Shown one piece after another: positions 6,431-45,394 of a stretch of 64,000 nucleotides of DNA. Below the pieces are notes generated by a model, which saw only the letters and a list, made by a program, of their open reading frames with translations, ran no database searches and was not told where the DNA came from. The stretch covers positions 402,521,037 to 402,585,036 of the forward strand of contig NC_080672.1 of the NCBI RefSeq assembly GCF_030247195.1, given 5' to 3'. Position 1 is the first letter of the stretch. Each line of letters opens with the position of its first letter. Position numbers and translations under genes: made by a program. This DNA is from Topomyia yanbarensis. Lineage: Eukaryota; Arthropoda; Insecta; Diptera; Culicidae.

Positions 6431-6487
6431 GTGATGACTTATAAATCAACCCAATTTTTATTCCTTGGTTTAATATATGATACTAAC

Positions 6488-9569: not shown

Positions 9570-9705
9570 ACCAATCGGTTTTTTTGAGTCTACTTTCTAC
9601 TTCTGCCGCAGTCAAACGTACAATCGAGCCAAGTGAACAACGGGCCTCTCGATCTAGTGTGCATTGTCTCGAGAACAGAGGAAATATCGGATTATTCTTG
9701 TCATC

Positions 9706-12839: not shown

Positions 12840-12905
12840 AGTTATGATGCAATGCGTGATGGCATCGATTAACTTTCTGCAATCCTGTCTCGTCAAATGG
12901 TGGCT
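12840..12905 (-). repeat. Upstream module 'S' at copy 2
   Basis: Minus-strand copy of the module described at 6127-6190. The minus frame reads HHLTRQDCRKLIDAITHCIIT, close to HHLTKQDCKQLIDAITYCIIT at the third locus, so the segment may once have coded. Its continuation is split by the Tc1-like insertion and resumes at 11093-10980 (AGCACATAGTTATCCTCAT, GATGGGTGGGTAATGTGTG), matching 53505-53580. Confidence 0.5.
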
Positions 12906-13416
12906 AATGCTACCTACAGTCAACTCCAGAATTGAGCGTACTCTTGCGATGATAATTTTTTGTCTTTTATTTTAAGTGCAAACCGTTTACATATATTAAA
13001 ACTTTTGATATAGTGTTATGACTTATTCATTCGTCTATCTATGAGCTGTTTTCATAAAATCATTTTTTCGTTATTCATGGCTATCGTGTACATTTTAAAA
13101 TTTAGTACAAGAATCTTGTAACTATTATCACTCTCATAGTGAAAAATTAAAACATTTCGCGGAAGTTATTGGTGCTCAAAAACTGACAAGGCTGCCAGTG
13201 CCCATATTTTGAAACAAGACACCTATATTGAAAGCTTAAAATGCGACAACTCTGCGTCGAACAATGTTGAATGTCACCACATGCTGTGTACCAAAGATTC
13301 TCACGCTTGTCACAAGCCGTTGCCCAGTGAAACTCTCTATCATCATTTCTCAATCATACTTCAACCAGTCGACGGGTTTTACGCGGATTCCCAGAAGCAT
13401 ATCAGGATCAATCAGA

Positions 13417-14157
13417 ATGTTGTTGCTATTTCTACTGCAGCTGGTACCACTTGCTGCACTGGATCCTATCGAGCCTCTCTGTCTACCGTTTAAATTCAAT
13501 CTAACAGGATTATGGAACGGTAAACTCTTTTTCAACGCAAAAATGTTTCAACGGAAGGAAGAAAGATGCCACCATAAAAATGCCGAAGTCGACATTGCAG
13601 ACATTATAGCGTCCAATCCTTGCCTGATGGTTCAATATTTGAAGAATTCCGATGGGAGCTCCATGTCTTTTGTAGTTTACGCAACGTGCAGCTTCATGGA
13701 AGTGTTTGGATTTTACACCAGCTACTTGGAGTATATGCGATGCTGGGTCGTTACCCCGATTCCATGGTGTGCTACGTCAAATAACTTCCATCCAGATGAC
13801 CGATATGAGATTACCTTTACAAGAGAAACTTTAACCGTCCAGCATCACTCAATCAATTCGAATAGGACCAATTGCTGGGAAAATCAAACGACTTCGGCGG
13901 CTTCTTTTAAGCTTACGCACTACAGGGAAGGCGTTGTACGTCACAGTCCGTGGGAAAATTCCGCAAACTGTAGCTGTCTACGTTCCGAATCGTATAACAC
14001 ACTAGATTTTCTTAATGCCATCTGCTCATCGAAGACGTCGGAAATTATCTCCCAGTGGTCGTTGAAGAGCGGATCATCAACATGGTACGTATGGCTTATA
14101 CTTGGTGTTCTACTAATACTGGTTTTTCTGGTAGTTACTCTACTGTACCAATGTTAA
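13417..14157 (+). CDS. Secreted, anchored cysteine-rich glycoprotein of unrecognised family (copy 2)
   Basis: The product is 246 aa from the ATG at 13417. The frame is open from an earlier ATG at 13264, but the family aligns only from MLLLFLLQLVPLAALDP, a signal peptide, so the later start is chosen. The ectodomain keeps the eight family cysteines, plus an ERCHH and an NCWEN cysteine shared with copy 3 but not copy 1. It has N-glycosylation sites NLT, NRT, NQT and NCS, and the core WCAT..NFHPDDRYEITFTRE. A hydrophobic terminus (WYVWLILGVLL...) follows small residues SGSS, compatible with a GPI-anchor signal, though this copy ends YQC. Roughly half of the residues match copy 1. About 150 bp of 5' sequence from TGTCACCACATGCTG onward is also conserved. 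The mirror, 31302-32042, differs at one residue. Function unknown. Confidence 0.8.
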   Translation: MLLLFLLQLVPLAALDPIEPLCLPFKFNLTGLWNGKLFFNAKMFQRKEERCHHKNAEVDIADIIASNPCLMVQYLKNSDGSSMSFVVYATCSFMEVFGFYTSYLEYMRCWVVTPIPWCATSNNFHPDDRYEITFTRETLTVQHHSINSNRTNCWENQTTSAASFKLTHYREGVVRHSPWENSANCSCLRSESYNTLDFLNAICSSKTSEIISQWSLKSGSSTWYVWLILGVLLILVFLVVTLLYQC

Positions 14158-14220
14158 ACCTGTGCTTAAACGAAAATTGGCTTTTTGATTATAACCATCC
14201 AATTGGGTCATTAAATGAAG

Positions 14221-14226
14221 AATAAA
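14221..14226 (+). promoter_or_regulatory. Polyadenylation signal AATAAA
   Basis: AATAAA 64 nt after the stop of the gene at 13417-14157, the only consensus signal close to it. Confidence 0.45.
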
Positions 14227-14322
14227 ATTATGGTTTCATTACCTAAAGTGGTACAGCTTATCTTTCTAAATATCGCTACTATATCTTCAAACCTTAAAAC
14301 CTCAGAATAATTTTTATTTGAT

Positions 14323-14595
14323 TTGCTCGACGAGCAGGCATTTGCTAAAATTAACAGATTTAAACTCGACGGTAGTTTCTTGCAGTTGTTTCAATCCTAT
14401 CTTACAGATCGAGATATAATGATTGCCATTAGAGATCGTCAGGAACCCACATTTACTTCTACGTCAGGTGTACCACAGGGAAGCCACTTGAGACCGTTCA
14501 TGTTTCTGCATTACTTCAACAACGTCCATCTAGTGCTGAAGACGCCACGTCTGTCTTTCGCAGACGATCTCAAGTCTGCTCATTCGCTAGACTGA
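14323..14595 (+). pseudogene. LINE reverse transcriptase fragment
   Basis: The 90-codon frame carries fingers/palm motifs of a non-LTR reverse transcriptase: a TSGVPQGSHL block (Jockey/CR1 style) followed by LSFADDLK with the catalytic ADD. Both flanks are missing, so it is a short dead piece. It lies 166 bp downstream of glycoprotein copy 2; a related ADD-containing fragment lies upstream of copy 3. The mirror is 30864-31136. Confidence 0.8.
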
Positions 14596-15076
14596 AGATT
14601 GCAGATTACTCCAACAACAGCTTGAAACCTAATGTTGATTGGTGTAGCACGAACTGCAGACCCGATTTGAGTTAATTACCATGTACTGGATACAGAAATT
14701 GAGCGCGGAAGTCACGTCTAGGTATGAGTTAGATTCTCAACTTGCATGCCAGAAAAAGATGAGTACCTGGTAGTAGGTAAGTTTCTGTATGGACGAATGT
14801 ACAATACTAGCCCTCCGTCAAATGGGTAATGTTTATTTGCATTACTAAATTCTGATATTTTTGGCTTCAGGCTATTCGTCTCTCTTGCTATTTTCGCATT
14901 TGTGCCCAAAATAAAAGAAATATGTACTCTCCTAACCCGATGAAAGTCCATCTCCTCAATTTTGAGTTAAATCATCGTTTTTCATCATGTGTTCATCACC
15001 AGGAGCCACCATCAATAATCAGCATCAGGGAGAGAGGGACCTTTTCTTCAAGCTGTACTTTTCTCTTTCAGTAGTA
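14596..15076. other. Non-coding stretch
   Basis: No gene or element was recognised. It is mirrored at about 30383-30863. Confidence 0.5.
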
Positions 15077-15391
15077 CACACCTAGAAAAAACAATGTAAA
15101 TTTACGTCTCCTGACCCTGACATATACGAGCATCAAAAATGACTTAGTTTTACGTTTGACTTTAATTTTACATGACGTTTAATTTCGTAAATCATGTAAT
15201 TTTACTCCACATACAGCGTTTGTTCTGAATGGTAGGAAGTGTAATTTTATGTTATTGCGCATGTAAAGTATATGTTTCATGTAAAATTAAACGGAACACG
15301 GTAATGTTCCGTCATTTCGTAAATTACGATTTGTTGAATTGTGTCATGTTTGCAATTACGTCAATGATAAAATTCAGATTTTTTTGGTGTG
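15077..15391. mobile_element. MITE with CACACC ends, present only in the left arm
   Basis: A 315 bp insertion with inverted ends CACACCTAGAAAAAAC and TTTTTTTGGTGTG, with TA outside each end. The body repeats motifs such as TTTACGT and its complement. The right arm has CAGTAGTATAACTATTG at the matching site (about 30380-30390), that is TATA without the element. Confidence 0.8.
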
Positions 15392-15923
15392 TAACTATTG
15401 ATGAACTTGGAATATAAATTCTAGACCGATCCGTTTGAGAATGAGAGTCAAGCAACTAAATTAGAACTCCGATACACCGCTGATGTGAAATTAGAGCCTC
15501 AAGGCTACAGCTGCGGCTGTAGCGATTGATCGGGGTTCTTCTTCTTAAAAAATACGATGAAGCTCTAGTGTCTAAACTCTTCCAATCATTCATTGTGTTA
15601 CTGTTTAATTTCTCTATTCGGGTCTAAACATTGTCTGCCAATCGTCACAGAAAGATGCGATTTGTGCATATCCCCTTACTAGGGTAACTGTTCTTTCAGT
15701 TTCTTTATGATATAACGTGAGCTCACATAAACGAGGTTTGCTACACCGCGAATGTCAGTTCTTGGTGACGCCATTAGCTCTCTCAAACGTGAAACTTATC
15801 CGCTCGACGCGCCATCTAGATTTCATTATTTTAACCCGTACCCGATGACAAAGGTATTTTCATGCATTGATGATAGTTCCCCAATAAACATCTTATGATC
15901 CAAGAGCCTAACGACCTGTTCAG

Positions 15924-16167
15924 GGTATAACCGAAGACTGCATATCAAGAAGACTGGCAACTCTGTCCAAAATCTGGAGACAGTAACAGCAACGCCACTT
16001 GCGGGTAAAGGTGGTACTTCCCATTGTGATGCACACACACATATACACTTTTACATTAAGCTTCCTACCTTCCTCCAATAGAGGCGCTGTAACCTCTGTC
16101 GCTTCTCGTTTGTATGGGGGAAGGAAAGAGATATCAGTCTTCTTAATATGTAGTCTTCGGTATAACC
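15924..16167. mobile_element. MITE with 33 bp inverted ends (GGTATAACCGAAGACT...)
   Basis: The 244 bp segment begins GGTATAACCGAAGACTGC and ends with the complement, CGGTATAACC. The inverted match extends through AAGAAGACTG on both sides. It has no coding capacity. The mirror is 27968-28211. Confidence 0.75.
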
Positions 16168-18134
16168 AAACATTGTATATTAACAATATAGTTCACTCCT
16201 GTAAATCTCATACGAATCACAAAGGACATAAATGTAATGCCATCTGTGGACGAAAAAGGATTTTAATCGCAATAAATAATCATTCTGCGATTAGCGTGCG
16301 CCGTAGATTGGAATGTCAACCGCGTCCAAGAAGTATAGGACAGAAAGGTGGGCAAATTGTTCATTTCCCAATGTGTTGGAATTTGGTATCTGAAACCTTG
16401 AGTATGCTGTCAGACCTGCGCAACGTAAGAATCAATAGTTGGAGCTCAGTGTGGAATATTTCGTGGGTTTATCTGTGTAATTTGTTTTTGCATCAGCTGC
16501 ATTTTAGGGATACTGCTTTAAGCTACCAAAATCTTTTCCAGCTGCTTTAGAAAAAAATTATCCTAAACACATGTAAGCAGAGAATGAGCATTTTCGTCAG
16601 CGAAATATTTTTCTGTTTCCTGTTTCCTGTAAACTGTGCCTCTTAATGAACTGGTCAGACTATGCAATGATCGTTATCTCATGTGGGTATTAAAATATGA
16701 TCATTAGAACGAAATAATGTAGCTTTCTCCTGCTGGAGTGATAATAAATCCAAAAAAGTTTTCTTCCTAATCTAGGAGTGTCGCCACCTCTACTATAATA
16801 TATTGTATTGAACTGAGAACTGTCATTACGTACGGCAAAATTTACAGTGTACTAGTAACCTTTTGTGCCATGGTGGCGCCAGTGTGCCGTCTTTTAAGAA
16901 ATACAGAAGTGAACCATATTGTCATTTTATAATATTTGGTATAATCCAAACAATATGTGGAATCGTTGGATTATACGGGTTAAAGTTCGTGTATAATATT
17001 TTTTTTATTAGGGTGGATGGTTGTTCTATTTTAATTATTTTAGGATAAACATTGCAGAATTTTATAAATATTTGAATTACGAGTGATAAGAGGATATTGA
17101 GTTAATAAAACTAAAAATTTACCTTTCGATGCTTTCTGAGAGATATAAAGGAAAACACCATAATTGCACTCTAGTGCCATCTGACGGTCGACTTTCAACG
17201 TTAGATCGCGAATTGAAATCGTTAAGATATTGTTTATGACACAAAAAACTGGATTCTAAACGCATTGCGCACTTACTATTCTTCTATTAAATTCTTCTAA
17301 TAGATTGGTTAGTTCGACTGGTCTGTCTATAAAACAGCCCACTATGGGAAGGTTCCATACAAACAGGTGGCCAAAAATTTTTTGTGTCATATTCTTTCTT
17401 TGTTTGAGTTGTTAATAATGAACGAAACTCATAATGGACGTATCCAGGTTTAAAAACCTTAAGGGGGAGGAGGAGGGGGAGAGGTGGGGGGTTTGGTGTA
17501 AAGTATTCAAGGTAATTTTTTTTTTCAAAAAAATAAAAAAGAGGCACAGTTTTAGTCAATTCAATCACTTTCCATATAATGATGCAGTATTTGAACAATA
17601 TTTTATTAAATTTTCATTGGTCAAGTGACAGCGAATTTCCGAAGGCACCTCGAAAAAATGCGGTGTGCATCATAACTCAAAATCTACTGGGCCAATCAAT
17701 CCGAAATTTTTCACAGTTCTTCAAATGATTCTCCAGGTAACTACAAGACCTTTCGATAAAATTATTATTACAACTATTTTTACAAAAAATGTTAGTAGTT
17801 TTTTTTAGCGAAAATGGGACTTTGGCTTCAAAGTGTTACAAAAAACACAAAAAGCGAAAAAAAAGGAAAAACTCAGATAACATGTGCTTTCAAACCCTCA
17901 AACCAATAGTAACGGAGAGAGAATGCATGTCGCAAAAGAGACATAAATATTTCAATTTAGTTATTAAATAGAAGTAAATAGAAAGTAGTTTGAAGTGCAT
18001 AGGCTATTCAGTGATTATTTCAATGTTGAAATGACCAATGAGCTTTAAAAGAAATGTCGCTCTTTCAGTTGATTTCTATGCCAATATATCTTCTTCATAT
18101 TTATAGTTTGCGAATAATTGTTATTTCATTTGGA
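16168..18134. other. Non-coding stretch with a polypurine tract
   Basis: No gene was recognised. An open frame at 15999-16550 runs through the MITE and has no motif. A G-rich polypurine run (17461-17491; G5, G5 and G6 blocks) is the only compositional feature and is preserved at 26643-26673. Sequence around 17640-17780 and 17780-17970 resembles dispersed repeat material but could not be assigned. Confidence 0.45.
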
Positions 18135-19208
18135 ACTCTTGTTCCGGAGATATAGTATAATGAATCCTATATAAACCAATATCACGAAAACGAAATAGTT
18201 AAAACTATCAGAATAAGTATTGAAATACATTTTTTATATAACGAGTGGCCATAAAAAATTTCTTGGTCACAAAACCTGCTTTTGACGATTCCGGGGCATA
18301 TTATTATAAGCATGAACATTTTTGAATTTACAAATCATGCTATTTAAAAATTTCAAATATTTGGTTACATTGATCGTGTTAACGGTAAGTTGGAAATTCC
18401 AGTACAACTCAGTACCATTTATTGCTACACAGTAATGTTGAGTAGCAAAAATGTAGTCAGATGAATTATCTTTTCAATAAAAATTGTAGTACACGCTCAT
18501 TTCGTTGTGGAATATGAAGCACTCAACCGAAACATGTACTGAAGTATCCTTTTCTTGTCGACTAGATGAGACTGCCTTTAAAACTTCAAGTGATGCGTTG
18601 TCAGTTTAGGGCAAATTCGGGCAACTAAAATCTTCGTTATAAGTTAGAAGATGCATTATCCTTGCATCCTCCATCGACTTTCGGGGGACATTGGGGAACT
18701 TTTTTCCCCGGATCCAATTTGTGGATATTTTAGGACTTTGAATCGTTATATTTCATATAGCTCCATACCAATGCAATATATATGCATTTCCAATAATATA
18801 ATCACAAAGCTGACATTCTTAGCTTTAAAATTGCGTATTTGAACATATGTTTCATTCAAAATTCAGAAAAGATACGAACAGTTGAAAAAACGCACGTGAT
18901 ATTTCTATTTTTCAAAATTTTTATCTTTAGACATCCATATACACAGTCAAGTCAAATATATTTCCGAGATACTCTGGGAATTTCTTAGCTAGAGTATCTA
19001 TAAACATTCAGTGTAGAATTAGTTTGAATTGGAGTTGATGCAATTTTCGATTTTTGGCCACATGCCTCCCCATAGTGCAGCCCGGAGACAACTTGACAGC
19101 TCCCATATATTGAACTCATAAGCAAATTTTGTGGTGATTTGGTGATGTCATGGCGGCTCGAATGGAGCAAAATTTGAAAATGACGCATCCCAGTTACTAT
19201 TTTCCATA
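18135..19208. other. Start of the unpaired region; nothing recognised
   Basis: First sequence with no mirror copy in the window. AT-rich, with no ORF above about 80 codons and no motif. Confidence 0.5.
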
Positions 19209-21695: not shown

Positions 21696-24600
21696 TACTC
21701 CCCCCCGGAGTACGGCCTGGATCTACCTGGTCAGTACAAGCTTCAACGCCAATGTCGAGCACAGCTAGCTTCACTGCTGGTCGTTCGTATATTCCGGTTG
21801 CTGTTTGAATTGTGGCCCATCTAACCTGCCCATCTTTGGAGTGACTTACAGCAATCACCTTTCCTTTCGGCCAGCTATTCCTTGGAGAGTTTGGGTCCAC
21901 GATAATAACCAGGTCCCCAACTGCAATCGGTTTAACCTACTCAAACCACTTCGTCCTCCGAGTCAAAGTGGGAAGATAATCGGAGAGCCAACGGCGCCAG
22001 AATATGTTGGCTAACGTTTGAGACATTTTCCAGCTTCGTTTCAATACAATTGTACTATCGTCGAAGAGAGCAAGGGGCTTTAGGCCATCAGACGAGCCCA
22101 CTAGAAAGTGGTTTGGAGTGAGAACTGCTGCGTTTTCATCATCGAGAGGAATGTGCGTCAATGGCCTGGAGTTAATTGTGTTTTCTATTTCCACCAACGC
22201 GTTTCTCAAAACCTCCTCGTTTGGTAGTTTAGGCAGTTTCATTTGTTATAAATTCTTTTTCACTGTTTGAATCATCCTCTCCCACGCGCCACCCATATGC
22301 GGTGAGGCCGGAGGAATGAATTTCCACGCGGTATGTGGAGATACTATTGCAGAAATCAGTTTGTTTTGGTCCATCCTTTGCAATTCGCTGGCAAGTTCTT
22401 TGGAGGCACCTTGAAAATTTGTGCCCCTATCGCTGTGAATTTCTATGGGGACACCGCGTCTAGCCATAAAGCATCTTAGTGCCATGATGCAGGAATCGGT
22501 GCTCAGCGAGTGGGCGAGTTCGATATGAACCGCACGGACTGTTAGGCATGTTATTAGGACTCCCCATCTTTTCTCCGTGCGACGCCCAAGTGATACAGTC
22601 ATAGGACCGAAGTAGTCTATCCCAACATACGCGAAGGGTCTAGTGTATGCTGCTAGTCTAGCTATGGGAAGATTTCCCATCGCTGGAGGACGCGGGGTGG
22701 CTTGGTCCAGCTTACAGCGCTGGCAGTTGCCACGAAGTTTCCTGTATACTGTTCGTAATTTTGGTATGTGAAAACGAAGTCGAAGCTTATTAATAGCCGT
22801 CTCGTGGTTGCGATGGAGAAGATTCCGATGGTAGTGCTGGGCGATAAGCTGCGTGATGGGATGTGTTGGAGAGAGGATTATCGGGTTATGTGATTCCAAG
22901 TCGGTGTGCGGGCAGGAACTAATTCGACCCCTGTTGCGGATAACTTTGTTGGAGTCTAAGTAGGGAGATTCACGAAGCAGCTGACTCCGTGAAGGAAGTT
23001 TTAAGTGCGAGCTACCGACAGCCATTTCCAAAATTGCAGACTCCTCTGGATATGATTCAAGTTGTGCTTGTCGAAATAGAAGGTTTTCGGCTTGTAGCAA
23101 CTCTTCCTTTTTCAGGGGATCCGTTTTGCCATTTTGATGACACCTTCTGTTCATAGTTGTCCTGGTCGAGATGGCTTTGAATCTAGCGATCGCACGTAGT
23201 ACGAAGGCAGTTACTCTACGTAGTCGTACCCAACTGGAAAACTTTTCAACGTTGATTATGCGTTCGGTTGCTTTTGCGTGCAACAGCAAGTGAGGTCGGA
23301 TTTCTTCATTAGTGCTTCCCAATTTGCAAGGCATCGCGGGCCACTCGTTCGTTGATTTGTACAAAAAATCGGGACCTTTGAACCATCTACTATTCTCTGT
23401 TACATCAGGAACTCGTTGCCATTTCGTGCCGTCGTCTGCTACATTCTCTTTTGTTGGCACCCACCGCCACTCACTTATATCTGTGGTTTCCAGTATTTCG
23501 CTAACTCGAAATGCAACGAATTGACTATACCTCCGATGATCGTAGTGCAACCAGCACAGCAAGTCTCTGGAGTCCGTCCAGAAGAATCTTTTCGATATTT
23601 TGATTGTAAGGGATTTTTCAATGCTGTTTGCCAGGCGAGCACCAAGAACTCCGGCTTGCAATTCCGATTTTGGGATCGATAAAAACTTTAATGGAGCAAC
23701 GCGTGTCTTAGCGCTGGCAAGCGTGCACTCTACAATTCCATCGTGCTCAAAACGCAGATGCACTACTGCGGCGAAGCCGCTTTCGCTTGCATCAACAAAT
23801 GTATGCATTTCTACCGTGGTGTTCGTGGACATGGGTGTTGTTACTCGGAAACATCTAGGAATCTTTACCGTTTCCACGCTCGGTATGATCTTTAACCACA
23901 AGTACTATTTTCGCAGTAACTCACCTTCAATCTTCTCATCCCATCCGATTCCCGATCTCCAGATCTCCTGCAATAGTACCTTCAGATAGATTAGTACGTG
24001 CCCGATCAGGCCCAATGGATCGTACAGCATCATCAGCGTGCGCAAGACTTCTCGTTTCGTCGGCTTTCGTGAGGCTGTTAGCAATTCAGGATCGTGTTGA
24101 GAAGATAGACGAAATGTGAATGTGTCGGACGATGTGCACCAATACATTCCCAAAACCTTTTCATTTGATATTCCGGTTCCAACGTCCAGATTCTTCTCTC
24201 CTGTTTCCGCTTCTTGTAACGCTTCAAGCACTGAAGGTGAGTTTGAAACCCAGTTTCTCATCTCAAATCCTCCGAAACTGTGAATTTGTTTTACATCTCG
24301 AGCGAGTTGAATCGCTTCACTTTCCGTTTCAACACTCGTTAGCATGTCGTCGACATAGTGCCTTCGAACGATCGCGTCGACTGCAACGGGATGCTGCGTT
24401 TCGTACTTCATAGCATTCATATTTTTAATATACTGCGCACTGCTCGGCGAACAACAGGCGCCGAATGTCATGACACGCAACAGGAACACACTGGGCTCGG
24501 TTTTTGACTTGTCGTCTTTCCAGAAAAATCGCTGACATTGCTGATCCTCCTCCCGAATAAGGATCTGGTGGTACATCTCACGGATGTCCCCACTGATACC

Positions 24601-25500
24601 GACTCGGAATTCTCTAAACTTGTGCAAGACTGACAGAAGCGATGTTAGCTGGTCTGGACCAACCAGCAGCATAGAATTTAATGAGATACCGTAAGCAGTT
24701 GCTGCTGCATCCCAAACAATACGGATCTTACCCGGTTTGTTCTGATTAAATACGGGAAAGGTTGGTAAATACCAGATACGCGAATGTGGAATGGCAAGCT
24801 CTGCGGCGGATAGCTTCCGGATGTAGTTTTTGTCTATGTACTCTTGAATTTTGTTGTCTAATACCCTTGCTAAAGACTCATTTTTCGCTAATCTCTGCTC
24901 CAAACATTTCCATCTCCTCAATGCCATTGGTTTGCTATCTGGTAGTCTAACGTTCTCATACCTCCACAGGAGTCCTGTCTCGAAACGACCTTCATTCTCA
25001 CACGACAGGTTTTTTAGTAAGTCCAGAGCTCGTTGGTTTTCGCCAGATAGTAAAATCTTGGTAGACTCTCGCACACCCATGCTATCCAGTGAAAAGTAGT
25101 TTTTCATGGCCTTGTGAAGTTCATCGTCGGTTTCACAAGCGCACTTGTGCGCACGAATAGAATGGTGGTTCACGAAGGGGTTGGAAATGTGATTTTCGTT
25201 GAAATTTCCGTACACTGTCCATCCGAGTCGTGTTTTGACTGCTACCGGTTGATTATGTGTACCCTCTCGGCTCTTCATCACGTGACCGAGGCTGGTATGG
25301 TCCAGGCCAATGAGAATTCGAGGGATTGCATGACGGTACGTTGTTATCGGCAACCCTTGAAGATGCTCGTACTTCTGCTCTAGTTCCTCCATAACCATCG
25401 TTTGATGAGGCAGCTTCAGCTCCTTTACGGTGCGTACACCAGCAAGTCGGTACTTAGTGGTTGAGTTTGCAGCGGCTGAAATGCTTAGGTCAACTTTACG
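21652..25500 (-). pseudogene. BEL/Pao LTR retrotransposon pol, 5'-truncated by the gap
   Basis: One continuous minus-strand reading frame (same frame throughout) runs from the gap edge at 25500 to about 21652. In order it has the Pao aspartic-protease/A17 linker (DHTSLGHVMKSREG; KTRLGWTVYGNF), a reverse transcriptase with the catalytic YVDD near 24350, and an RNase H (HTFVDASESGFAAVVH). Then come the integrase zinc-binding region (YHRNLLHRNHE ... CQRC), an integrase core with D at IDYFGP and HSDRGTNF, and the C-terminal DUF5641-type domain (NSRPLTHIP; HFLVG). Three in-frame stop codons interrupt it, at 23905-23907, 22246-22248 and 21937-21939, with no frameshift seen. Gag and the protease start are missing, lost to the gap. 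Such an element encodes its own reverse transcription and integration enzymes; this copy is inactive. Confidence 0.9.
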
Positions 25501-26000
25501 NNNNNNNNNNNNNNNNNNNNNNNNNNNNNNNNNNNNNNNNNNNNNNNNNNNNNNNNNNNNNNNNNNNNNNNNNNNNNNNNNNNNNNNNNNNNNNNNNNNN
25601 NNNNNNNNNNNNNNNNNNNNNNNNNNNNNNNNNNNNNNNNNNNNNNNNNNNNNNNNNNNNNNNNNNNNNNNNNNNNNNNNNNNNNNNNNNNNNNNNNNNN
25701 NNNNNNNNNNNNNNNNNNNNNNNNNNNNNNNNNNNNNNNNNNNNNNNNNNNNNNNNNNNNNNNNNNNNNNNNNNNNNNNNNNNNNNNNNNNNNNNNNNNN
25801 NNNNNNNNNNNNNNNNNNNNNNNNNNNNNNNNNNNNNNNNNNNNNNNNNNNNNNNNNNNNNNNNNNNNNNNNNNNNNNNNNNNNNNNNNNNNNNNNNNNN
25901 NNNNNNNNNNNNNNNNNNNNNNNNNNNNNNNNNNNNNNNNNNNNNNNNNNNNNNNNNNNNNNNNNNNNNNNNNNNNNNNNNNNNNNNNNNNNNNNNNNNN
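25501..26000. other. Assembly gap (500 N)
   Basis: Exactly 500 undetermined bases, a placeholder size used by some Hi-C scaffolders. Left of it the sequence stops inside a BEL/Pao pol gene. Right of it the inverted arm begins at once. Gag, the protease part and the other LTR of the BEL element are not found on the far side, so the true distance is probably not 500 bp or the join is wrong. Confidence 0.98.
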
Positions 26001-27967
26001 TCCAAATGAAATAACAATTATTCGCAAACTATAAATATGAAGAAGATATATTGGCATAGAAATCAACTGAAAGAGCGACATTTCTTTTAAAGCTCATTGG
26101 TCATTTCAACATTGAAATAATCACTGAATAGCCTATGCACTTCAAACTACTTTCTATTTACTTCTATTTAATAACTAAATTGAAATATTTATGTCTCTTT
26201 TGCGACATGCATTCTCTCTCCGTTACTATTGGTTTGAGGGTTTGAAAGCACATGTTATCTGAGTTTTTCCTTTTTTTTCGCTTTTTGTGTTTTTTGTAAC
26301 ACTTTGAAGCCAAAGTCCCATTTTCGCTAAAAAAAACTACTAACATTTTTTGTAAAAATAGTTGTAATAATAATTTTATCGAAAGGTCTTGTAGTTACCT
26401 GGAGAATCATTTGAAGAACTGTGAAAAATTTCGGATTGATTGGCCCAGTAGATTTTGAGTTATGATGCACACCGCATTTTTTCGAGGTGCCTTCGGAAAT
26501 TCGCTGTCACTTGACCAATGAAAATTTAATAAAATATTGTTCAAATACTGCATCATTATATGGAAAGTGATTGAATTGACTAAAACTGTGCCTCTTTTTT
26601 ATTTTTTTGAAAAAAAAAATTACCTTGAATACTTTACACCAAACCCCCCACCTCTCCCCCTCCTCCTCCCCCTTAAGGTTTTTAAACCTGGATACGTCCA
26701 TTATGAGTTTCGTTCATTATTAACAACTCAAACAAAGAAAGAATATGACACAAAAAATTTTTGGCCACCTGTTTGTATGGAACCTTCCCATAGTGGGCTG
26801 TTTTATAGACAGACCAGTCGAACTAACCAATCTATTAGAAGAATTTAATAGAAGAATAGTAAGTGCGCAATGCGTTTAGAATCCAGTTTTTTGTGTCATA
26901 AACAATATCTTAACGATTTCAATTCGCGATCTAACGTTGAAAGTCGACCGTCAGATGGCACTAGAGTGCAATTATGGTGTTTTCCTTTATATCTCTCAGA
27001 AAGCATCGAAAGGTAAATTTTTAGTTTTATTAACTCAATATCCTCTTATCACTCGTAATTCAAATATTTATAAAATTCTGCAATGTTTATCCTAAAATAA
27101 TTAAAATAGAACAACCATCCACCCTAATAAAAAAAATATTATACACGAACTTTAACCCGTATAATCCAACGATTCCACATATTGTTTGGATTATACCAAA
27201 TATTATAAAATGACAATATGGTTCACTTCTGTATTTCTTAAAAGACGGCACACTGGCGCCACCATGGCACAAAAGGTTACTAGTACACTGTAAATTTTGC
27301 CGTACGTAATGACAGTTCTCAGTTCAATACAATATATTATAGTAGAGGTGGCGACACTCCTAGATTAGGAAGAAAACTTTTTTGGATTTATTATCACTCC
27401 AGCAGGAGAAAGCTACATTATTTCGTTCTAATGATCATATTTTAATACCCACATGAGATAACGATCATTGCATAGTCTGACCAGTTCATTAAGAAGCACA
27501 GTTTACAGGAAACAGGAAACAGAAAAATATTTCGCTGACGAAAATGCTCATTCTCTGCTTACATGTGTTTAGGATAATTTTTTTCTAAAGCAGCTGGAAA
27601 AGATTTTGGTAGCTTAAAGCAGTATCCCTAAAATGCAGCTGATGCAAAAACAAATCACACAGATAAACCCACGAAATATTCCACAATGAGCTCCAACTAT
27701 TGATTCTTACGTTGCGCAGGTCTGACAGCATACTCAAGGTTTCAGATACCAAATTCCAACACATTGGGAAATGAACAATTTGCCCACCTTTCTGTCCTAT
27801 ACTTCTTGGACGCGGTTGACATTCCAATCTACGGCGCACGCTAATCGCAGAATGATTATTTATTGCGATTAAAATCCTTTTTCGTCCACAGATGGCATTA
27901 CATTTATGTCCTTTGTGATTCGTATGAGATTTACAGGAGTGAACTATATTGTTAATATACAATGTTT

Positions 27968-28211: not shown

Positions 28212-28363
28212 CTGAACAGGTCGTTAGGCTCTTGGATCATAAGATGTTTATTGGGGAACTATCATCAATGCATGAAAATACCTTTGTCATCGGGTACGGG
28301 TTAAAATAATGAAATCTAGATGGCGCGTCGAGCGGATAAGTTTCACGTTTGAGAGAGCTAATG

Positions 28364-29997
28364 CACAGTGGGACGAGCCCGGACTTAAGTCCATATATGA
28401 AGGTTATGCAATATTCTCACTAGTATTTTTCTCGTATCAGCTGAGCCATCAGAAACATTTTCGCAAGATTTTAGGTGATTTGAATGCAAAATGAATTTTT
28501 GACAGCTTTTTGAAGGGCATAACTCAAGTGTTTTTTGCATTATTTGACCATAAGAACTACATACGGTTATTCTCGTTTTTCAAAGAAACGGTTGATTTTA
28601 TGAATTGCATTACTTCACCAAAATTATCCGTGTGATAAAATTACATCGTAAAATCGCCAAAAATAAGTCACTAGTTGGTTTAGTTAGTGTTTAGATAACT
28701 GTTTGTCATGAATTTTTATTGAATTCGAACTTCTAAAGCGATAACAACAACGACGCCCGTGAATGCCCGCGATCACACTATGCTCATTCGAAAGCTTTTC
28801 ATTTTCTCTTTAAAATGAGCCTATGCTAGTTTTGCGAAAACTTGCGATAAGCAGTCAAAATTTGAAAAAACTGTGAGTGGAGACGCATGGTTATTACTGA
28901 TATTCAATTTGAATATTCACTTGATAACTAGAATAATGACACTAATTTATGCAAAACTTTCAAATAGCATTTAGAGCATGATCTACAAGGGTTTTACTAG
29001 TGATCAAGAGTAAGGAGCCGAGTGGGAAGTATGGTTTTTAAGTGGTAAAGGAATGAAGAATGTTTAAAATTCAGTAAATATTTTCAACCGTCTGAAATGT
29101 GTCATAAAATGTTTCATGAACTATTTTTGCTAACTTACGCAATAACTGTCAAATTGAGTGAACACAGTTGAGTTCTGGTCATTTGGTGAGACTATTTTAT
29201 CCGAGTTTGCATAGCACTGATATAGCTTAAGGGTATGCGATATTATCCAAATAAAATAAAACCATTTTTAAAAGAACCATATACGCGAAAAAAGGATTTA
29301 GGATTTATTTTTATTTAAGGTATGAAATAAGCAATCTAATTAACTTAAAACACACCTGCGAAAACAAAATCGTTAAACATCTTGTTGATTAGTGAATGTA
29401 AATCAATATTCCACTAAGACGCTCAAAATGTTTGTTTTGAAAATGAAAGAAAATGTAGTTTTCATACCAAGTAACCCACTAATGAATTAAACGTTCCTAA
29501 ATTAGTCGATCACATCTTATTTGATCCTTAAAAATAATATAGTCATTTCTGAAGCCCCATAATGAGATGTCAATCAATTCGTTTGAATACGGAAAATGAA
29601 TTCCAAAATTACAATTGAAAGAAATCATTATAAAAGACAAAATATTTACTTTTGAGCAACTCTACATCGGAATTCAGCGCACAAAAATGTCTTTAATTTT
29701 TTTTTAACCTGCGCATCAATTTTATTTTTGAGCCACCCTAATGTATAATAAAATTTGTTTTACAAATGTTAATATCAAAAACGATTTAGAACACGAAAAT
29801 TAATATACACAAATTTTAAGAACGATTTGGAAAAAAAAATTTGAGACACCCTAATGAATAGTAAATGTTCATTTTTGAAATGTTTTAATATCAAAAACGA
29901 ATTCAGCTTACTAAAATTACATAAAAACGTCCTATATGAACCGATACGGAAAAGTTTGGACTTTAGTCCACCTTTTGTTCTAAGTCGTGCCACTGTG
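28364..29997. mobile_element. Transib-like non-autonomous element with RSS-like ends
   Basis: A 1634 bp insertion absent from the left arm, where TAATG (15772-15776, as CATTA) is single. Here TAATG is duplicated at 28359-28363 and 29998-30002. Both ends carry the heptamer CACAGTG. After it the left end has 12 nt, then ACTTAAGTCC (28383-28392). The right end, read inward, has 23 nt, then ACTAAAGTCC. A 5 bp duplication and CACWRTG heptamers are hallmarks of Transib/ProtoRAG transposons and match the V(D)J signal heptamer. The interior is AT-rich, with no transposase and two imperfect copies of a segment with CACCCTAATG near 29735-29780 and 29845-29900. The assignment is by ends only. Confidence 0.6.
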
Positions 29998-30863
29998 TAA
30001 TGGCGTCACCAAGAACTGACATTCGCGGTGTAGCAAACCTCGTTTATGTGAGCTCACGTTATATCATAAAGAAACTGAAAGAACAGTTACCCTAGTAAGG
30101 GGATATGCACAAATCGCATCTTTCTGTGACGATTGGCAGACAATGTTTAGACCCGAATAGAGAAATTAAACAGTAACACAATGAATGATTGGAAGAGTTT
30201 AGACACTAGAGCTTCATCGTATTTTTTAAGAAGAAGAACCCCGATCAATCGCTACAGCCGCAGCTGTAGCCTTGAGGCTCTAATTTCACATCAGCGGTGT
30301 ATCGGAGTTCTAATTTAGTTGCTTGACTCTCATTCTCAAACGGATCGGTCTAGAATTTATATTCCAAGTTCATCAATAGTTATACTACTGAAAGAGAAAA
30401 GTACAGCTTGAAGAAAAGGTCCCTCTCTCCCTGATGCTGATTATTGATGGTGGCTCCTGGTGATGAACACATGATGAAAAACGATGATTTAACTCAAAAT
30501 TGAGGAGATGGACTTTCATCGGGTTAGGAGAGTACATATTTCTTTTATTTTGGGCACAAATGCGAAAATAGCAAGAGAGACGAATAGCCTGAAGCCAAAA
30601 ATATCAGAATTTAGTAATGCAAATAAACATTACCCATTTGACGGAGGGCTAGTATTGTACATTCGTCCATACAGAAACTTACCTACTACCAGGTACTCAT
30701 CTTTTTCTGGCATGCAAGTTGAGAATCTAACTCATACCTAGACGTGACTTCCGCGCTCAATTTCTGTATCCAGTACATGGTAATTAACTCAAATCGGGTC
30801 TGCAGTTCGTGCTACACCAATCAACATTAGGTTTCAAGCTGTTGTTGGAGTAATCTGCAATCT

Positions 30864-38408: not shown

Positions 38409-39247
38409 CTCAGCTCCTACATCAAATTATCGGTTGGATAAGAAAAATTGACATTTTTTCCAATAAATAGCCAATGAAAATCACAAATCAACCACATCAA
38501 TTTTATAAGGCGCACTCATTAACCCCTTCATGCCCACGTTGTTTATAAACAACAACGTTTTTCAAGGCTATAACTTTTGATTTACGCAAGATTTACTCAC
38601 AAAAACAAGTAAAGCAAATAAATGTGACTATAACCTTTCATTTGAGCACTAACAGTTACAAATATCAACTCTAGAACTGAACTTATTACAATTATTCTGA
38701 TAGGATTCCGATGGAGCAGTGCTGTCAGTGTCAATTTACGTTGAAGGCGAAAAATGAAATTTTAACAAATCTTCGTTATTTTGTAATGTTATTGAAAATT
38801 GATTAAACCTACCAATTCAGACAGTCTTCGACTACGTTTTCCACCCAATTGGATTATTATAAATATTCTAGGAGAATTATATCGAGCACCTATAATTATG
38901 AAAAAAGCTTTTTCGTGTTCCTTGCCCCACCGTTTTCAATGCAAAATAAGTTTGAAAGATCATTCGTTTTCGAGCTCTCCATCGAGACAGAGGTTGTTTT
39001 TTCTAGTCCGTAGTGCTGTGTGAGGCGATAAAGAATAGTTTTAATCCGCATTCAAGGTTATTTTGCCAGTTCGGTTCGGTCCTCAGTCTTTTGTTCGCGT
39101 GTGAGGATTAAACAATAGCCAGCTGTATAAGCTGGATCGGTTCGTCGTTGGACACCAGTTTAAAGCTAAGTGGTTTTTGTCTTTTGTAACACATTTATTG
39201 CTTTCTTCCGTCTGCGCGGGCGCTGACCCCGTGCGTTGACGTTTTCT

Positions 39248-40567
39248 ATGGTTCCCTCTCCGGATGGTCAAATGGAAGTTGAATCGGGTTCAACTTCTAA
39301 GGCTCCCCCCCGGCCCAAATGCTATCCAGAACTCTCAACTGGTCCATTTGTGGTCTTCTTTCGGCCCAAGACTAAATCACTGAATCTTCTTCAGATTTCT
39401 AGAGACCTGACGGAACGGTTCTCGGCTGTGACCGAAATTTCAAAGGTCCGCTCGGACAAGATAAGGGTGTTGCTAGCCAACTCAAAGCAGGCAAACGATA
39501 TTGCTTGCTGTGAGCACTTTACGCGGGATTATAACGTGTATATTCCGGCTGTAAGAGTACAATCCGAAGGCGTCGTAACCGATGAGAGTTTGACGTGCGA
39601 GGATCTGCTGAAGTACGGGGTTGGCCGATTCAGAGACCGCTTACTTCAGCCAGTTAAAATACTTGAGTGCAAACGTTTGCACTCAGTAGTAGTTGCGGGG
39701 GATGGTTCAAAAACGTACCCCCAATCAAACTCTTATCGGGTGACCTTCGCTGGTACCGCTTTGCCAAATTTCGTCCTCTTGCACAAGGTTCGTCTGCCTG
39801 TGCGTCTGTTTGTGCCGCGGGTCATGAATTGCACAAAGTGTAAACAACTGGGTCACACAGCCACCCATTGTAGCAATAAGGCCCGCTGTGGAAAATGCGG
39901 GGAGAATCATCTAGATGATTCGTGCAGTAGGCAAGCCGAAAAGTGTCCTTACTGTGCGGAGAGTCTGCATGATATCTCGGCATGTCCCGCGTACAAACTA
40001 CGCGGGGATAAACTGAAACGTTCCCTTGCGGGACGATCCAAACATTCTTTCGCAGAAATGTTAAAGAATGCTACGCCACCATCCTCAGCAAACATCTATA
40101 CTCACTTGCCTCCTGACGAGGGCGAGGCTGGTAACCCACAAGAGGGAACATCTACTAGGGTGCCTAGAATTTATAGGAAGAGGAGGAACACTTCCTCTCG
40201 TAAAGTTCCTTGTAAAGGCCAGAAGGTGTCCCTTGAGGGGGCTCCGAAAGTCACATCTATTGGAAGTGTTGCAACCAAACCGAAGCAATTAGCTCCTGGT
40301 CTCGGAGGATTAAGCTCAGAGAAGGAGTTCCCAGCACTTCCAGGAACATCAAAAATCCCAAGTGTTCCTTTGTTTCAGTTCGAGAGTAATCACAGCACTG
40401 GAATTATAAAACTCTCGGACATAGTGGACTGGATAATAAAAACTTTCAATATTACTGATCCTATTAAAAGTCTTATGTTAGCTTTTCTCCCTACAGTGAG
40501 AACATTTTTGAAGCAGTTGACTGCTAAATGGCCCCTCCTCTCAGCGATTGTATCCTTCGATGGCTAA
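39248..40567 (+). CDS. ORF1 (Gag-like RNA-binding protein) of the LINE
   Basis: 439 aa from ATG 39248; upstream in-frame codons start only with TTG. The N-terminal half has the pattern typical of I/Jockey ORF1 proteins. The middle carries three zinc knuckles: CTKCKQLGHTATHC, CGKCGENHLDDSC and CPYCAESLHDISAC. A Ser/Thr/Pro-rich linker and a hydrophobic C-terminal segment follow. Such proteins coat the element RNA and chaperone reverse transcription. The stop overlaps the ORF2 start (ATGGCTAA), which suggests coupled reinitiation. Intact. Confidence 0.88.
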   Translation: MVPSPDGQMEVESGSTSKAPPRPKCYPELSTGPFVVFFRPKTKSLNLLQISRDLTERFSAVTEISKVRSDKIRVLLANSKQANDIACCEHFTRDYNVYIPAVRVQSEGVVTDESLTCEDLLKYGVGRFRDRLLQPVKILECKRLHSVVVAGDGSKTYPQSNSYRVTFAGTALPNFVLLHKVRLPVRLFVPRVMNCTKCKQLGHTATHCSNKARCGKCGENHLDDSCSRQAEKCPYCAESLHDISACPAYKLRGDKLKRSLAGRSKHSFAEMLKNATPPSSANIYTHLPPDEGEAGNPQEGTSTRVPRIYRKRRNTSSRKVPCKGQKVSLEGAPKVTSIGSVATKPKQLAPGLGGLSSEKEFPALPGTSKIPSVPLFQFESNHSTGIIKLSDIVDWIIKTFNITDPIKSLMLAFLPTVRTFLKQLTAKWPLLSAIVSFDG

Positions 40568-43500
40568 CTCATCGAACGAGGTCACGGATTTGATCACTGT
40601 TCTACAGTGGAATTGCAGAAGTATCATCCCGAAAATCGATTCCTTCAAAATTTTAATAAATAATTTGAGTTGCGATGCATTTGCATTATGTGAAACTTGG
40701 TTAACTTCCGACATAGAACTCAACTTCCACGACTTTAATATTATTCGCCTGGATCGAGACACCCCCTATGGAGGAGTGCTTTTGGGGATCAAAAAGTGCT
40801 ATTCCTTCTACAGAATTAACCTTCCTTCGATAACAGGTATTGAAGTTGTTGCTTGTCAAGTAACAACCAAAGGCAAAAGCCTTTGCATAGCTTCCATATA
40901 TATTCCCCCCAACACCGCGGTTGGGCACCGACGGCTACAAGACATCTTAGAATCCCTGCCAGCACCGCGACTAGTTTTAGGAGACTTTAACTCTCACGGT
41001 ACAGCATGGGGTTGCCTCTATGATGATAACCGGTCTTCCTTAATTCAGGATCTTTGCGATAACTTCAATTTGACAATTTTAAACACGGGTGAAATGACAC
41101 GGATTCCTGCTCCTCCAGCGCGCCCGAGCGCCTTAGACTTGTCCCTTTGCTCAACATCGCTGCGGTTAAATTGCACGTGGAAGGTAATTCCTGATCCCCA
41201 CGGCAGCGACCATCTGCCGATTGTAGTCTCAATCAATAACGGTTCAAGGCCATTGAAATCAATCAATATTTCGTATGACCTCACACGAAATATCGATTGG
41301 AAGAGCTATGCTGCCGCGATATCCGACAACATCGAATCTACCCAAGAACTTCCTCCGGAGGAAGAGTACAGCTTTTTGGCTGGCTTGATTCTCGACAGCG
41401 CGAATCAAGCTCAGACTAGGCCAGTACCCGGCGCGAACATACAAAAACGTTCTCCCAATCCCTGGTGGGATAAAGAGTGCTCAGACGTGTACGCAGAGAA
41501 GGCCGCCGCGTTTAAGACCTTCCGGAACGACGGGTTACCCGCTAGTTTTCGACAGTACGCGACGTTAGACAAGCGAATGAAGAGTTTGATGAAAGCCAAA
41601 AAACGCGGTTATTGGCGCCGGTTCGTCGACGGATTAACGAGAGAAACATCGATGAGCACTCTTTGGGGAACAGCCCGACGTATGCGAAATCGAAACAGTA
41701 CTAATGAGAGCGTGGAATATTCAAACCGTTGGATATTCGATTTCGCCAAGAAGGTTTGTCCGGATTCCGCCCCGGCACAGAAGATTTACCGCGCCGCGTC
41801 TCCTCACGATAGCGCGAACGAAACACCTTTTTCGATGGTGGAGTTCTCACTTGCTCTCTTGTCGTGTAACAATAAAGCTCCGGGGCCAGACAGAATCAAA
41901 TTCAACTTGTTGAAGAATCTGCCTGACTCTGCCAAGAGACGCTTGTTGAACTTATTTAATAAGTTTCTCGAGGCTAACATTGTCCCACTCGATTGGAGAC
42001 AAGTGAAGGTCATCGCCATCCAAAAACCAGGAAAACCAGCCTCCGACCACAATTCGTACCGTCCGATCGCAATGCTATCCTGTATCCGGAAGTTGTTCGA
42101 GAAAATGATCCTATCCCGCCTCGACAATTGGGTCGAAGCAAATGGCTTACTGTCAGATACACAATTTGGCTTTCGCAAAGGCAAAGGGACGAACGATTGT
42201 CTTGCGTTGCTCTCAACTGAAATTCAAATGGCCTATGCTAGCAAAGAGCAGATGGCATCAGTGTTCCTAGATATTAAGGGGGCTTTTGATTCAGTTTCGA
42301 TCAACATTCTTTCAGAGAAGCTGCACCAGCATGGTCTTTCAGCGACTTTAAACAACTTTTTACTAAACTTGTTGTCGGAAAAGCACATGCATTTTTCGCA
42401 TGGTGACTTATCGACATCACGATTTAGCTACATGGGCCTTCCCCAGGGCTCATGTCTAAGCCCCCTTTTATACAATTTCTATGTCAACGACATTGATGAA
42501 TGTCTTGACAATTCCTGCACGTTAAGGCAACTTGCAGACGATGGCGTGGTGTCTGTTACGGGACCCAAAGCTGTCGATCTACAAGGACCATTACAGAATA
42601 CCCTAGACAATTTGTCTGCTTGGGCTATTAAGCTGGGTATCGAATTCTCCACGGAGAAAACTGAGCTAGTTGTATTTTCAAGGAAGCGTGAACCAGCACA
42701 ACTACAGCTTCTATTAATGGGTCAAACTATCGCTCAGGTCTTCACAGTAAAATATCTAGGGGTCTGGTTCGACTCGAAAGGTACTTGGGGATGCCATATT
42801 CGGTATCTGAAACAGAAATGCCAACAAAGGATCAACTTTCTTCGTACAATAACCGGAACATGGTGGGGTGCCCACCCAGGAGACCTAATTAGGTTGTATC
42901 AAACAACGATACTGTCGGTAATGGAATACGGATGCTTCTGCTTTCGCTCCGCCGCGAACATACATTTCATCAAACTCGAAAGAATTCAGTATCGTTGTTT
43001 GCGTATCGCCTTAGGGTGCATGCAGTCGACCCATACGATGAGTCTCGAAGTGCTGTCGGGCGTTCTCCCGTTGAAAAATCGATTTTGGGAACTCATATCG
43101 ATTGCTCATTCGATGCGATATCTTGAACCCGGTCGTGATTGAAAATTTCGAAAGGCTTGTTGAGCTCAATTCTCAGACCCGTTTCATGTCCCTGTACTTT
43201 GACTACATGGCGCAGAATATTAACCCTTCTTCTTACAATCCCAACCGTGTGCATTTCATAAATACTTCTGAATCTACTGTTTTCTTCGACACATCCATGA
43301 AAGACGAGATTGGTGGAATTCCGGACCACATACGCCCACAAGTGGTTCCAAACATTTTTTATAATAAATTCCGAGAAGTCGACTGTTCTAAGATGTTTTA
43401 TACTGACGGATCAAACCTCGAAGGATCCACTGGCTTCGGTATTTTCAATCAAAAGTTCACCGCCTCCTACAAACTCAGTGACCCTGCTTCAGTTTACGCC

Positions 43501-44244
43501 GCAGAACTAGCTGCCATTCAGTATACCCTTGGAGTCATTGAAACATTACCCGCAGACCATTACTTCATCGTTTCGGATAGCCTCAGTTCCATTGACGCTA
43601 TTCGCTCGATGAAACAAGGCAAGTACTCCTCGTATTTTTTGGGGAAAATACGGGAGCTACTGAGTGCTTTATCTGACAACTCTTTCCAGATTACCTTGGT
43701 ATGGGTCCCTTCTCATTGCTCCATTCCGGGCAATGAGAAGGCAGACTCCTTAGCTAAGGTGGGTGCCTTAGAAGGAGACGTTTACGAAAGACCAATTTGC
43801 TTCAGCGAATTTTTCAGTATTACTCATCAGAGAACCCTCGAAAGTTGGCAAACTTCGTGGAGCAGTGGAGAGCTGGGAAGGTGGCTACATTCGATAATCC
43901 CTAAGGTATCGACGAAACCTTGGTTCAAGGGGATGGATGTGGGTCGTGACTTCATTCGTGTGATGTCCCGACTCATGGCAAACCATTACACGCTGGATGC
44001 ACATCTCCGGCGTATTGGGCTCGTGGATAGTGGTATCTGCGCTTGTGGCGACGGCTATCACGACATCGATCACATTGTCTGGGCGTGCACCGAGTACAGT
44101 TCCGCTAGGTCTCGGCTAATAGATACCCTGCGGGCCCGAGGAAGACCAACCAACGTCCCGGTTCGAGATGTGCTGGCAAGCCGCGATGTTCTCTATATGT
44201 CCCTTATATACACCTTTGTGAAAACCATCAATATACAAGTCTAA
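40560..44244 (+). pseudogene. ORF2 polyprotein (endonuclease, reverse transcriptase, RNase H) with one frameshift
   Basis: Starts at ATG 40560, overlapping ORF1 by 8 nt. The N-terminal 230 residues are an apurinic-type endonuclease (LQWNCRSI, ETWLTS, GDFNSHG, SDHLPI). The reverse transcriptase spans about residues 450-720, with LDIKGAFDSV, GLPQGSCLSP and the catalytic LADD (instead of the usual YADD or FADD). The first frame stops at 43140-43142. A second frame, already open at 43102, continues with an RNase H (FYTDGSN, AAELAAIQ, SDSLSS, GNEKADSLAK) and a C-terminal cysteine/histidine cluster (CACGDGYHDIDHIVWAC). The change of frame near 43100-43140 is the only lesion seen. It would separate RNase H from the reverse transcriptase unless it is a sequencing error. 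Confidence 0.88.
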
Positions 44245-45011
44245 CTGCCCCTTGTTATCTCCTTATCATTCTCAGAACGCTCTTCCACCTGTATCAAACC
44301 ATCTGTATCGAATGAGCCAACAAACACGGGACCTACGGCACGAACATAACACGCTTAACTCGAAATGTAGCCGATCCACATCTGAGCCGTTCTACGAAAT
44401 CGTCTGGAAAAACCCCTGCCATCTTGAGGAGGACCACCCGGCGTCCCAGTACATGATTCCCCTGATGAAGGCCACCCGAGTTTGTAATCCATCCGTTGAT
44501 CTCACGATGCCTGAAACTGAAATAATTTTCTCTCCCTGCCATCTTTGTCTACCCTCCCTCCCCTGACTCTTATACCCAGAAGTAACACCCCTAACCCCCC
44601 CCCCTCCCCCAATATCATCACGAAGCATTTAGCTCTTCTTGTTTCTTCTAGTTTTAACTATTATATTATATAATCTCGTTGAAATTGCCCAACTCTACTA
44701 CCCACAAAAATAACTATAATTACGAATCTTTACAAAATTCAATCATGCCCTCTAGTTATGCCTAGTTTTAAGTTAGTCGTAAAAAATTGTCCCCCTTAAT
44801 TAAACATTATTTGCTCCGATAATCTCACTGATAAAAATGTCAAACCATATTGCCACAAAAACTAAATGACCCCCCTAATCTTACGAAAACAATATTATCC
44901 CCTTGTGTAGATATATAAGATAGCTATAAAATCGCATTAGTTTCATTTTAAAAAAATCAATATGTAATCCCCTAGTTTTAAGCAATTTAAAATGTAAAAC
45001 AAAACAAAATT

Positions 45012-45038
45012 GGCACCTTTAAGCTAACGCAACGTGCC
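45012..45038 (+). promoter_or_regulatory. 3'-UTR stem-loop of the LINE
   Basis: GGCAC (45012-45016) pairs with GTGCC (45034-45038) around a 17 nt loop containing TTTAAGCTAACGC, followed by TCAAATAAACGA and the tail. It has the same architecture as the half-LINE hairpin at 10764-10796. Confidence 0.65.
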
Positions 45039-45394
45039 TTATCAAATAAACGATTTGAATAAAAAAAAAAAAAAGTTTGAAAGATGGACATGAAAGAGTT
45101 AGTATCATATATTAAACCAAGGAATAAAAATTGGGTTGATTTATAAGTCGTCACATATAGGAATCTTATGTCGTTATGCTTCAGTTTAACTCTTTTTCGG
45201 GTTAGAGAATCCAACCCAAGTGAGCTGCGTATAAGGTAATCGATGTCTACTGCGATATGCCCACCTCTAATTCTTGCTGTCAATTGTGGATCGACCGTAT
45301 GCGAGATATTTTATCTTGGCTGCAAACACGTGACTTAACAGCTACCTGTAAACGACGGCAGAAAGTAGGCCATTTGAGGTTTCTTGGAAAATAC

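Follow-up and report, generated by a model that had tools for sequence, protein, structure and literature searches.

The window, a 64,000-nucleotide stretch of Topomyia yanbarensis DNA, contains two transposons, E1 and E2, which we read as non-autonomous Transib elements with two-part ends, the inner block of one end being set about one helical turn further in than that of its partner. We put the probability of this explanation, taken whole, at roughly 0.9. The Transib features seen in E1 were a 5-bp target-site duplication, G+C-rich targets and CAC termini resembling the heptamer of V(D)J recombination signal sequences (RSS), and the feature typical of asymmetric Transibs was a shared inner block at unequal distances from the two heptamers (10/21 nt in E1, 11/22 nt in E2). 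The coordinates of the features are given in Table 1.

Table 1. Features of the two asymmetric elements and of the transposase-bearing element T1. Positions are those of the window unless a locus is named; spacings are counted from the heptamer or the element end as stated.
Feature	Position	Strand	Remarks
E1, non-autonomous Transib-type transposon	28364..29997	+	1634 bp, no coding capacity found; 40 copies examined
E1 left target-site duplication TAATG	28359..28363		
E1 right target-site duplication TAATG	29998..30002		
E1 empty target site, single TAATG	15772..15776		opposite arm of inverted duplication
E1 short end, 13-bp terminal inverted repeat (TIR) CACAGTGGGACGA	28364..28376	+	heptamer at 28364-28370
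E1 short-end inner block GGACTTAAGTCCA	28381..28393	+	12-nt palindrome plus A; 10 nt after heptamer
E1 long end, 13-bp TIR CACAGTGGCACGA	29985..29997	-	heptamer at 29991-29997
E1 long-end nonamer-like ACAAAAGGT	29970..29978	-	12 nt after heptamer; resembles ACAAACAGG, same place in E2
E1 long-end inner block GGACTAAAGTCCA	29957..29969	-	21 nt after heptamer
E2, non-autonomous Transib-type transposon	17340..19077	+	1738 bp, interior unrelated to E1; 20 further copies
E2 left duplication CAGCC	17335..17339		
E2 right duplication CAGCC	19078..19082		
E2 long-end block GTGGCCAAAAAT	17367..17378	+	27 nt from end
E2 long-end nonamer-like ACAAACAGG	17359..17367	+	12 nt after heptamer
E2 short-end block GTGGCCAAAAAT	19050..19061	-	16 nt from end, 11 nt nearer than long end
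E2 long-end half, second gap-truncated copy in right arm	26001..26795	-	
T1, Transib with transposase	L051 2921-7109, G000:C3 ~294.62 Mb		4189 bp, duplication CAATG

The window is an inverted duplication (1-18134 against 26001-51566 reversed, in four blocks of 99.3-99.9% identity) with a gap of 500 N at 25501-26000 between the arms, each of which carries insertions of its own; the arrangement suggests a tail-to-tail join of two haplotypes more than a natural palindrome. An insertion present in the right arm only (~38961-45067) is a T-rich-ended non-LTR element that we take to be jockey-type; it encodes endonuclease, RT and RNase H domains and is flanked by a target duplication of some 13-18 nt. 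The left arm alone carries an insertion of ~310 bp (~15077-15388) with CACACC...GGTGTG ends beside TA dinucleotides, a probable TA-target MITE. Close to the gap, two adjoining open frames (22246-25398) encode a BEL/Pao-type pol, and proteins of a small family (229-297 aa, predicted to be secreted or to lie in membranes) were observed at 13264-14157, 5148-5837 and 53611-54333, together with the arm copies. The protein at 13264-14157, the one member searched, matched nothing in Pfam, and the protein collection yielded no homolog of it at E ≤ 0.001.

The first-pass annotation had described E1 as flanked by the duplication TAATG, as opening with CACAGTG at both ends and as having a clean empty site in the left arm, and reading of the sequence at these places bore out all three statements. 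The joined flanks of E1 were recovered in the other arm (15672-15871, reversed) with one TAATG only, and this perfect empty site argues for insertion of E1. No stop-to-stop frame longer than 76 aa was present among the frames listed for the E1 span, and no credible Pfam match was obtained for E1 in six frames or for E2. A hidden transposase remnant in E1 or E2 was considered and rejected, as the three weak Pfam matches (E 0.08-0.4) fell below the cut-off.

The outermost 13 bases of the two E1 ends agreed at 12 of 13 positions, with CACAGTGG at the start of each. It had been claimed that a shared block follows the heptamer after exactly 12 nt at the left end and 23 nt at the right. This was right for a sub-block, since ACTTAAGTCC begins 12 nt past the left heptamer and ACTAAAGTCC 23 nt past the right; the full block does not sit there, because the GG preceding the sub-block is also common to both ends and the block proper (GGACTWAAGTCCA) therefore starts at 10 and 21 nt. 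The invariant of the E1 ends is the 11-nt difference, whatever the block cut, and not 12 and 23 as such. The left block holds the palindrome GGACTWAAGTCC, the sole perfect 12-nt palindrome within E1. For E1, an inner block as good was found within the inner 47 nt in 1 of 1500 shuffles, and an offset of exactly 11 arose by chance in 65 of 1500 shuffles for E1 and 48 of 1500 for E2.

Likeness to a nonamer was scored against the RSS nonamer ACAAAAACC, the consensus being that given in PMC8289069. The best register was 12 at the short end of E1 (5/9) and 23 at its long end, where it was tied with register 12 (both 6/9); matches of at least 6/9 occurred at about 2.5% of positions inside E1. The layout of E1 is 12/23 in the nonamer register, yet the block is a poor nonamer, in agreement with the earlier remark that the block is not the usual A-rich nonamer. 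Register 13 was best at the short end of E2 (CCAAAAATC, 7/9) and register 24 at its long end (CCAAAAATT, 6/9, tied with 12 and 10).

E2 came from a structural scan of the window for CAC ends, an exact 5-bp duplication, at least 10/13 end matches and a length of 60-6000 bases. Only two places were returned, E1 and E2, each with 12/13 end matches and an 11-nt offset. E2 was found by structure alone and showed the 11-nt offset again, which counts in favour of the explanation given above. Raising the length limit to 8000 added two places at 10/13, which are ~6057 bp long and mirror each other in the arms, as well as two at 9/13; none of these added places had a good inner block (best 7/10). No 12/13 places with duplications of 2, 3, 4, 6, 7, 8 or 9 bp were present in the window. 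When the window was shuffled 60 times, a place at 10/13 or better turned up in 27 of the shuffles and one at 12/13 in a single shuffle.

The E2 ends (CACTATGGGAAGG and CACTATGGGGAGG) both carry CACTATG, and 0 of 1500 shuffles matched the quality of the shared E2 block. Alignment of the interiors of E1 and E2 gave nothing better than E = 0.03. The long ends of the two families have ACAAA(C)AGGTGG in common, beginning 12 nt past the heptamer (as good in 9 of 5000 shuffles), and their short ends showed no likeness past the terminus (as good in 4714 of 5000 shuffles). The same structural scan, run at 11/13 or better over 254 kb comprising copies of E1, T1 and T2 with their flanks (L010-L081), recovered E1 copies, T1 and T2 but no further asymmetric family.

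Copies of E1 were sought in the 1.17-Gb assembly, in which the window lies at G000:C3:402521037-402585036; 40 of 2164 first-look candidates were scored and all 40, the window copy included, were read. Both ends were reached in 37 copies, and the other three (L047-L049) were truncated at the long end. A perfect 5-bp duplication was present in 34 of these 37 (exceptions L026, L033 and L043), with a G+C content of 66% as against 32-47% along the window, C as the first base in 25 of 34 and G as the last in 24 of 34. Both blocks were intact at 10/21 nt in 34 of the 37; L036, L043 and L045 had point changes in one block with its position unchanged, and none of the 37 had an altered block spacing. 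In the copies read, block and spacing were kept, and two of the outcomes that the first-pass annotation had named as contrary, another duplication length and a shifting spacing, did not occur.

One copy (L011) was identical to the E1 of the window over 1634 bp but had a different duplication (CAACT), which argues that E1 moved recently. The other 38 copies were 91-93% identical to the window E1, and mean divergence from the majority inside E1 copies was 2.4%. Conservation of the E1 geometry is not by itself proof of function, because copies this young largely reflect common descent.

The search for E2 gave 49 match rows from 40 scored of 3590 candidates, and the ends of 20 near-full-length copies were read, leaving out the window copy. 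The block positions (11/22) were kept in 20 of 20. The blocks at the two ends matched exactly over GGCCA in 16 of 20 copies; in the other four, judged by eye, one block was changed internally, by substitution in L102, L106 and L108 and by substitution or loss of one base in L104. A perfect 5-bp duplication was seen in 13 of 20 rows (57% G+C in those 13), three further rows from two loci had a 5-bp duplication plus one extra C, and the remaining four rows lacked a perfect one. The extra C (L088, L092 and L095) followed the duplication at the short end only, and possibly reflects imprecise processing or an end variant one base longer; the row pairs L092/93 and L094/95 show the same flanks and hence were counted as one locus. 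The remainder of the gap-cut E2 copy of the window was observed on another contig (C37) at 100% identity.

The same genome holds Transib transposases, enzymes related to the recombinase that rearranges antibody genes. When it was scanned with the Pfam RAG1 model (68 of 308 candidates scored, cut-off E ≤ 0.01), a single match was obtained, within the element T1. The TIRs of T1 are 760 bp long, symmetric and 98.4% identical to each other, with CACAGTGG at the ends, and both ends read CACAGTG-23-ACAAAAACA, an 8/9 match to the nonamer. Its transposase lies in separate open pieces, split by introns or by damage. Against the Pfam RAG1 cut-off of 25 bits the middle piece passed (26.3) and the C-terminal piece failed (22.6); the C-terminal piece matched the structure of the HzTransib transposase (6pqn) at E = 2.8e-42, and RAG1 chains only weakly. 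With a T1 piece as query, 150 of 1307 candidate places were scored, of which 148 had 59-62% identity, most with open 389-aa frames.

A second family, T2, comprises L055-L081, in which 26 loci were 99.0-99.8% identical to L058 over an aligned 2.1-2.3 kb. L058, the only locus showing both ends, has the duplication CACTG, TIRs of ~920 bp and symmetric ends (CACAGTGGTCCAGATCGC) that start with CACAGTGG; no nonamer likeness was found at the T2 ends (best 3/9). T2 is a very young, abundant Transib family, mostly with open 389-aa frames, and a likely current source of transposase.

Both T1 and T2 have CACAGTGG and a 5-bp duplication in common with E1, but not the inner part of the ends or the asymmetry. 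A Transib-type reading of E1 was supported by the maintained block, spacing and duplications and by the presence of CACAGTG-ended Transib transposases in the genome. The autonomous partner with matching ends was not found: T1 and T2, drawn from the 68 of 308 RAG1-model and 150 of 1307 T1-piece candidates scored, are symmetric where both ends are in view, and among the T1 and T2 loci found none carried the ends of E1 or E2 on a transposase-bearing element.

Transib and RAG transposases pair the two ends of an element, nick at the 5' edge of the CAC, form hairpins on the flanks and insert with a 5-bp stagger. The clean empty site of E1 and its G+C-rich duplications of 5 bp fit cutting and insertion of this type. 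The mechanism that we infer, covering the transposase that moved E1, the chemistry of its cut, what the inner block does and whether the ends have to differ, would run as follows. A Transib transposase supplied by another element would bind the two ends of E1 and cut at the 5' edge of the terminal CAC, a reaction that in HzTransib proceeds with hairpin formation, as described in PMC6941560. E1 would then be inserted at G+C-rich targets with a 5-bp stagger, giving the 5-bp duplication. Each end of E1 and E2 would be bipartite, with a 13-bp outer element that includes the heptamer and an inner block specific to the family. As the depth of that block differs between the ends by about one helical turn (11 bp), it could lie on the same helical face at both and be gripped at either by a single additional DNA-binding surface of the transposase.

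The idea that the inner block may be a second contact of this sort, displaced by one helical turn between the ends, is supported by its appearance in both families and by the bipartite ends of AanRAGL and ProtoRAG. The symmetric ends of T1 and T2 weigh against this function, as does the view put forward in PMC7204232 that invertebrate RAG-like complexes should depend for the most part on the terminal 15-17 bp and should be rather insensitive to asymmetry.

It is possible, if not the account we favour, that E1 and E2 are Transibs whose blocks and 11-nt offset are leftovers of the origin of each element rather than a recognition signal, and that the likeness to 12/23 is a coincidence. Elements with transposases of their own (T1 and T2) have symmetric ends, so at least some Transibs in this genome do without asymmetry, and symmetric TIRs are the rule in most Transib families according to PMC8289069. 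The E1 copies are young, which makes their conservation weak evidence, and the nonamer scores are low, both in E1, where 6/9 is reached at ~2.5% of positions, and in T2. However, E1 and E2 have unrelated interiors and still show the same 11-nt offset with different blocks, and the ACAAA-AGGTGG motif lies at nearly the same place in both long ends. Other Transibs, and RAG-like elements too, are described with asymmetric bipartite ends in PMC8355894 and PMC9435367.

The reading of E1 and E2 as Transibs with bipartite ends is to be kept apart from the stronger idea of a Transib lineage here whose transposase, working without RAG2, reads those ends and needs a short end paired with a long one. We consider this idea doubtful. 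The likeness to the 12/23 rule drawn in the first-pass annotation was real in that the ends are unequal and offset by 11 nt; a rule proper would further demand that unlike ends be paired. If the idea were true, an ordinary insect transposon would obey a functioning 12/23-like rule set by the 11-bp offset of an interchangeable inner block, and it would do so beside a relative in the same genome, T1, with CACAGTG-23-ACAAAAACA at both ends.

Two other origins of E1 were weighed, and each appears very improbable. One is mobilization by an element encoding RAG1L and RAG2L, rather than by a plain Transib; RAG-like elements are described with bipartite asymmetric ends and 5-bp duplications (AanRAGL in PMC9435367, ProtoRAG in PMC8289069). 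Against it, the single RAG1-family match at E ≤ 0.01 (68 of 308 scored) lay in T1, whose best structural match was HzTransib. E1 and E2 gave no coding match in six frames, as would also be expected of a non-autonomous relative of a RAG-like element. On its termini alone E1 could have come from a different superfamily whose ends are of the CAC or CA type (CACTA/Chapaev or hAT, for example), CAC termini being found in CACTA-type elements too. Duplications of 2-4 or 8 bp are the usual lengths there; these superfamilies were rejected on the 5-bp duplications of E1 (34 of 37 copies) and E2 (13 of 20 rows), and Transibs of the same genome have the first 8 bases of E1 as well as its 5-bp duplication.

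Matches outside the mosquito were set aside. Eight viral contigs matched a looser pattern (18 fixed bases, 21 allowed spacings), for which about as many matches or more were estimated by chance, and the stricter E1 and E2 patterns had 0 matches in viral contigs. A bacterial contig with the long-end geometry (L009) was also put down to chance; it has 56% G+C, reads by eye as the end of a coding frame and bears no other likeness to the window.

Kapitonov and Jurka (2005) is reportedly the primary paper on asymmetric Transibs. The legend to Fig. 2 of PMC8355894 lists 12/23 (±1) asymmetric ends for Transib5 of Drosophila melanogaster and for Transib2, TransibN1, N2 and N3 of Anopheles gambiae, and PMC9435367 describes all Subgroup I Transibs as having asymmetric ends and Subgroup II as including both kinds. 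Because these two sources report asymmetric Transibs, such ends are of an already known kind and the asymmetry of E1 is not new as such. Like E1, the Anopheles and Drosophila elements have heptamer ends with 12/23 asymmetry, and PMC8355894 gives 5-bp duplications for Transibs generally. Compared by the description in PMC8355894, the E1 block differs from theirs in being a palindrome and not an A-rich nonamer. A close relationship of E1 or E2 to these named families is possible, the comparison being by description rather than by letters.

These elements bear on the question whether antigen-receptor recombination owes its 12/23 asymmetry to a time before RAG2. One genome holds E1 and E2, which are asymmetric and unrelated, T1, which is symmetric with a near-canonical 23-type signal, and T2, which is young and abundant, and the ends of the four form a natural paired set for testing whether a Transib transposase senses asymmetry.

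Among elements from more distant hosts, HzTransib of Helicoverpa zea resembles T1 in its transposase and has heptamer-type ends, but its TIRs, as described in PMC8289069, are symmetric with little or no nonamer likeness. AanRAGL of Aureococcus, as presented in PMC9435367, is like E1 in having a 13-bp outer and a ~10-bp inner element, unequal spacing and 5-bp duplications; its spacing is 4/13 (a difference of 9) compared with 4/15 (a difference of 11) in E1, and, unlike E1, it carries genes for RAG1L and RAG2L. ProtoRAG of amphioxus shares with E1 a heptamer-like terminus, an inner block, unequal spacing and 5-bp G+C-biased duplications, and differs in its spacers (27/31), its block (GCCATCTTG) and its RAG1L plus RAG2L, on the account given in PMC8289069. 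The 12/23 signals of vertebrate V(D)J recombination have the exact CACAGTG heptamer and the 11-bp spacer difference of E1; their nonamer is matched poorly in E1 (5/9 and 6/9) and at 8/9 by both ends of T1.
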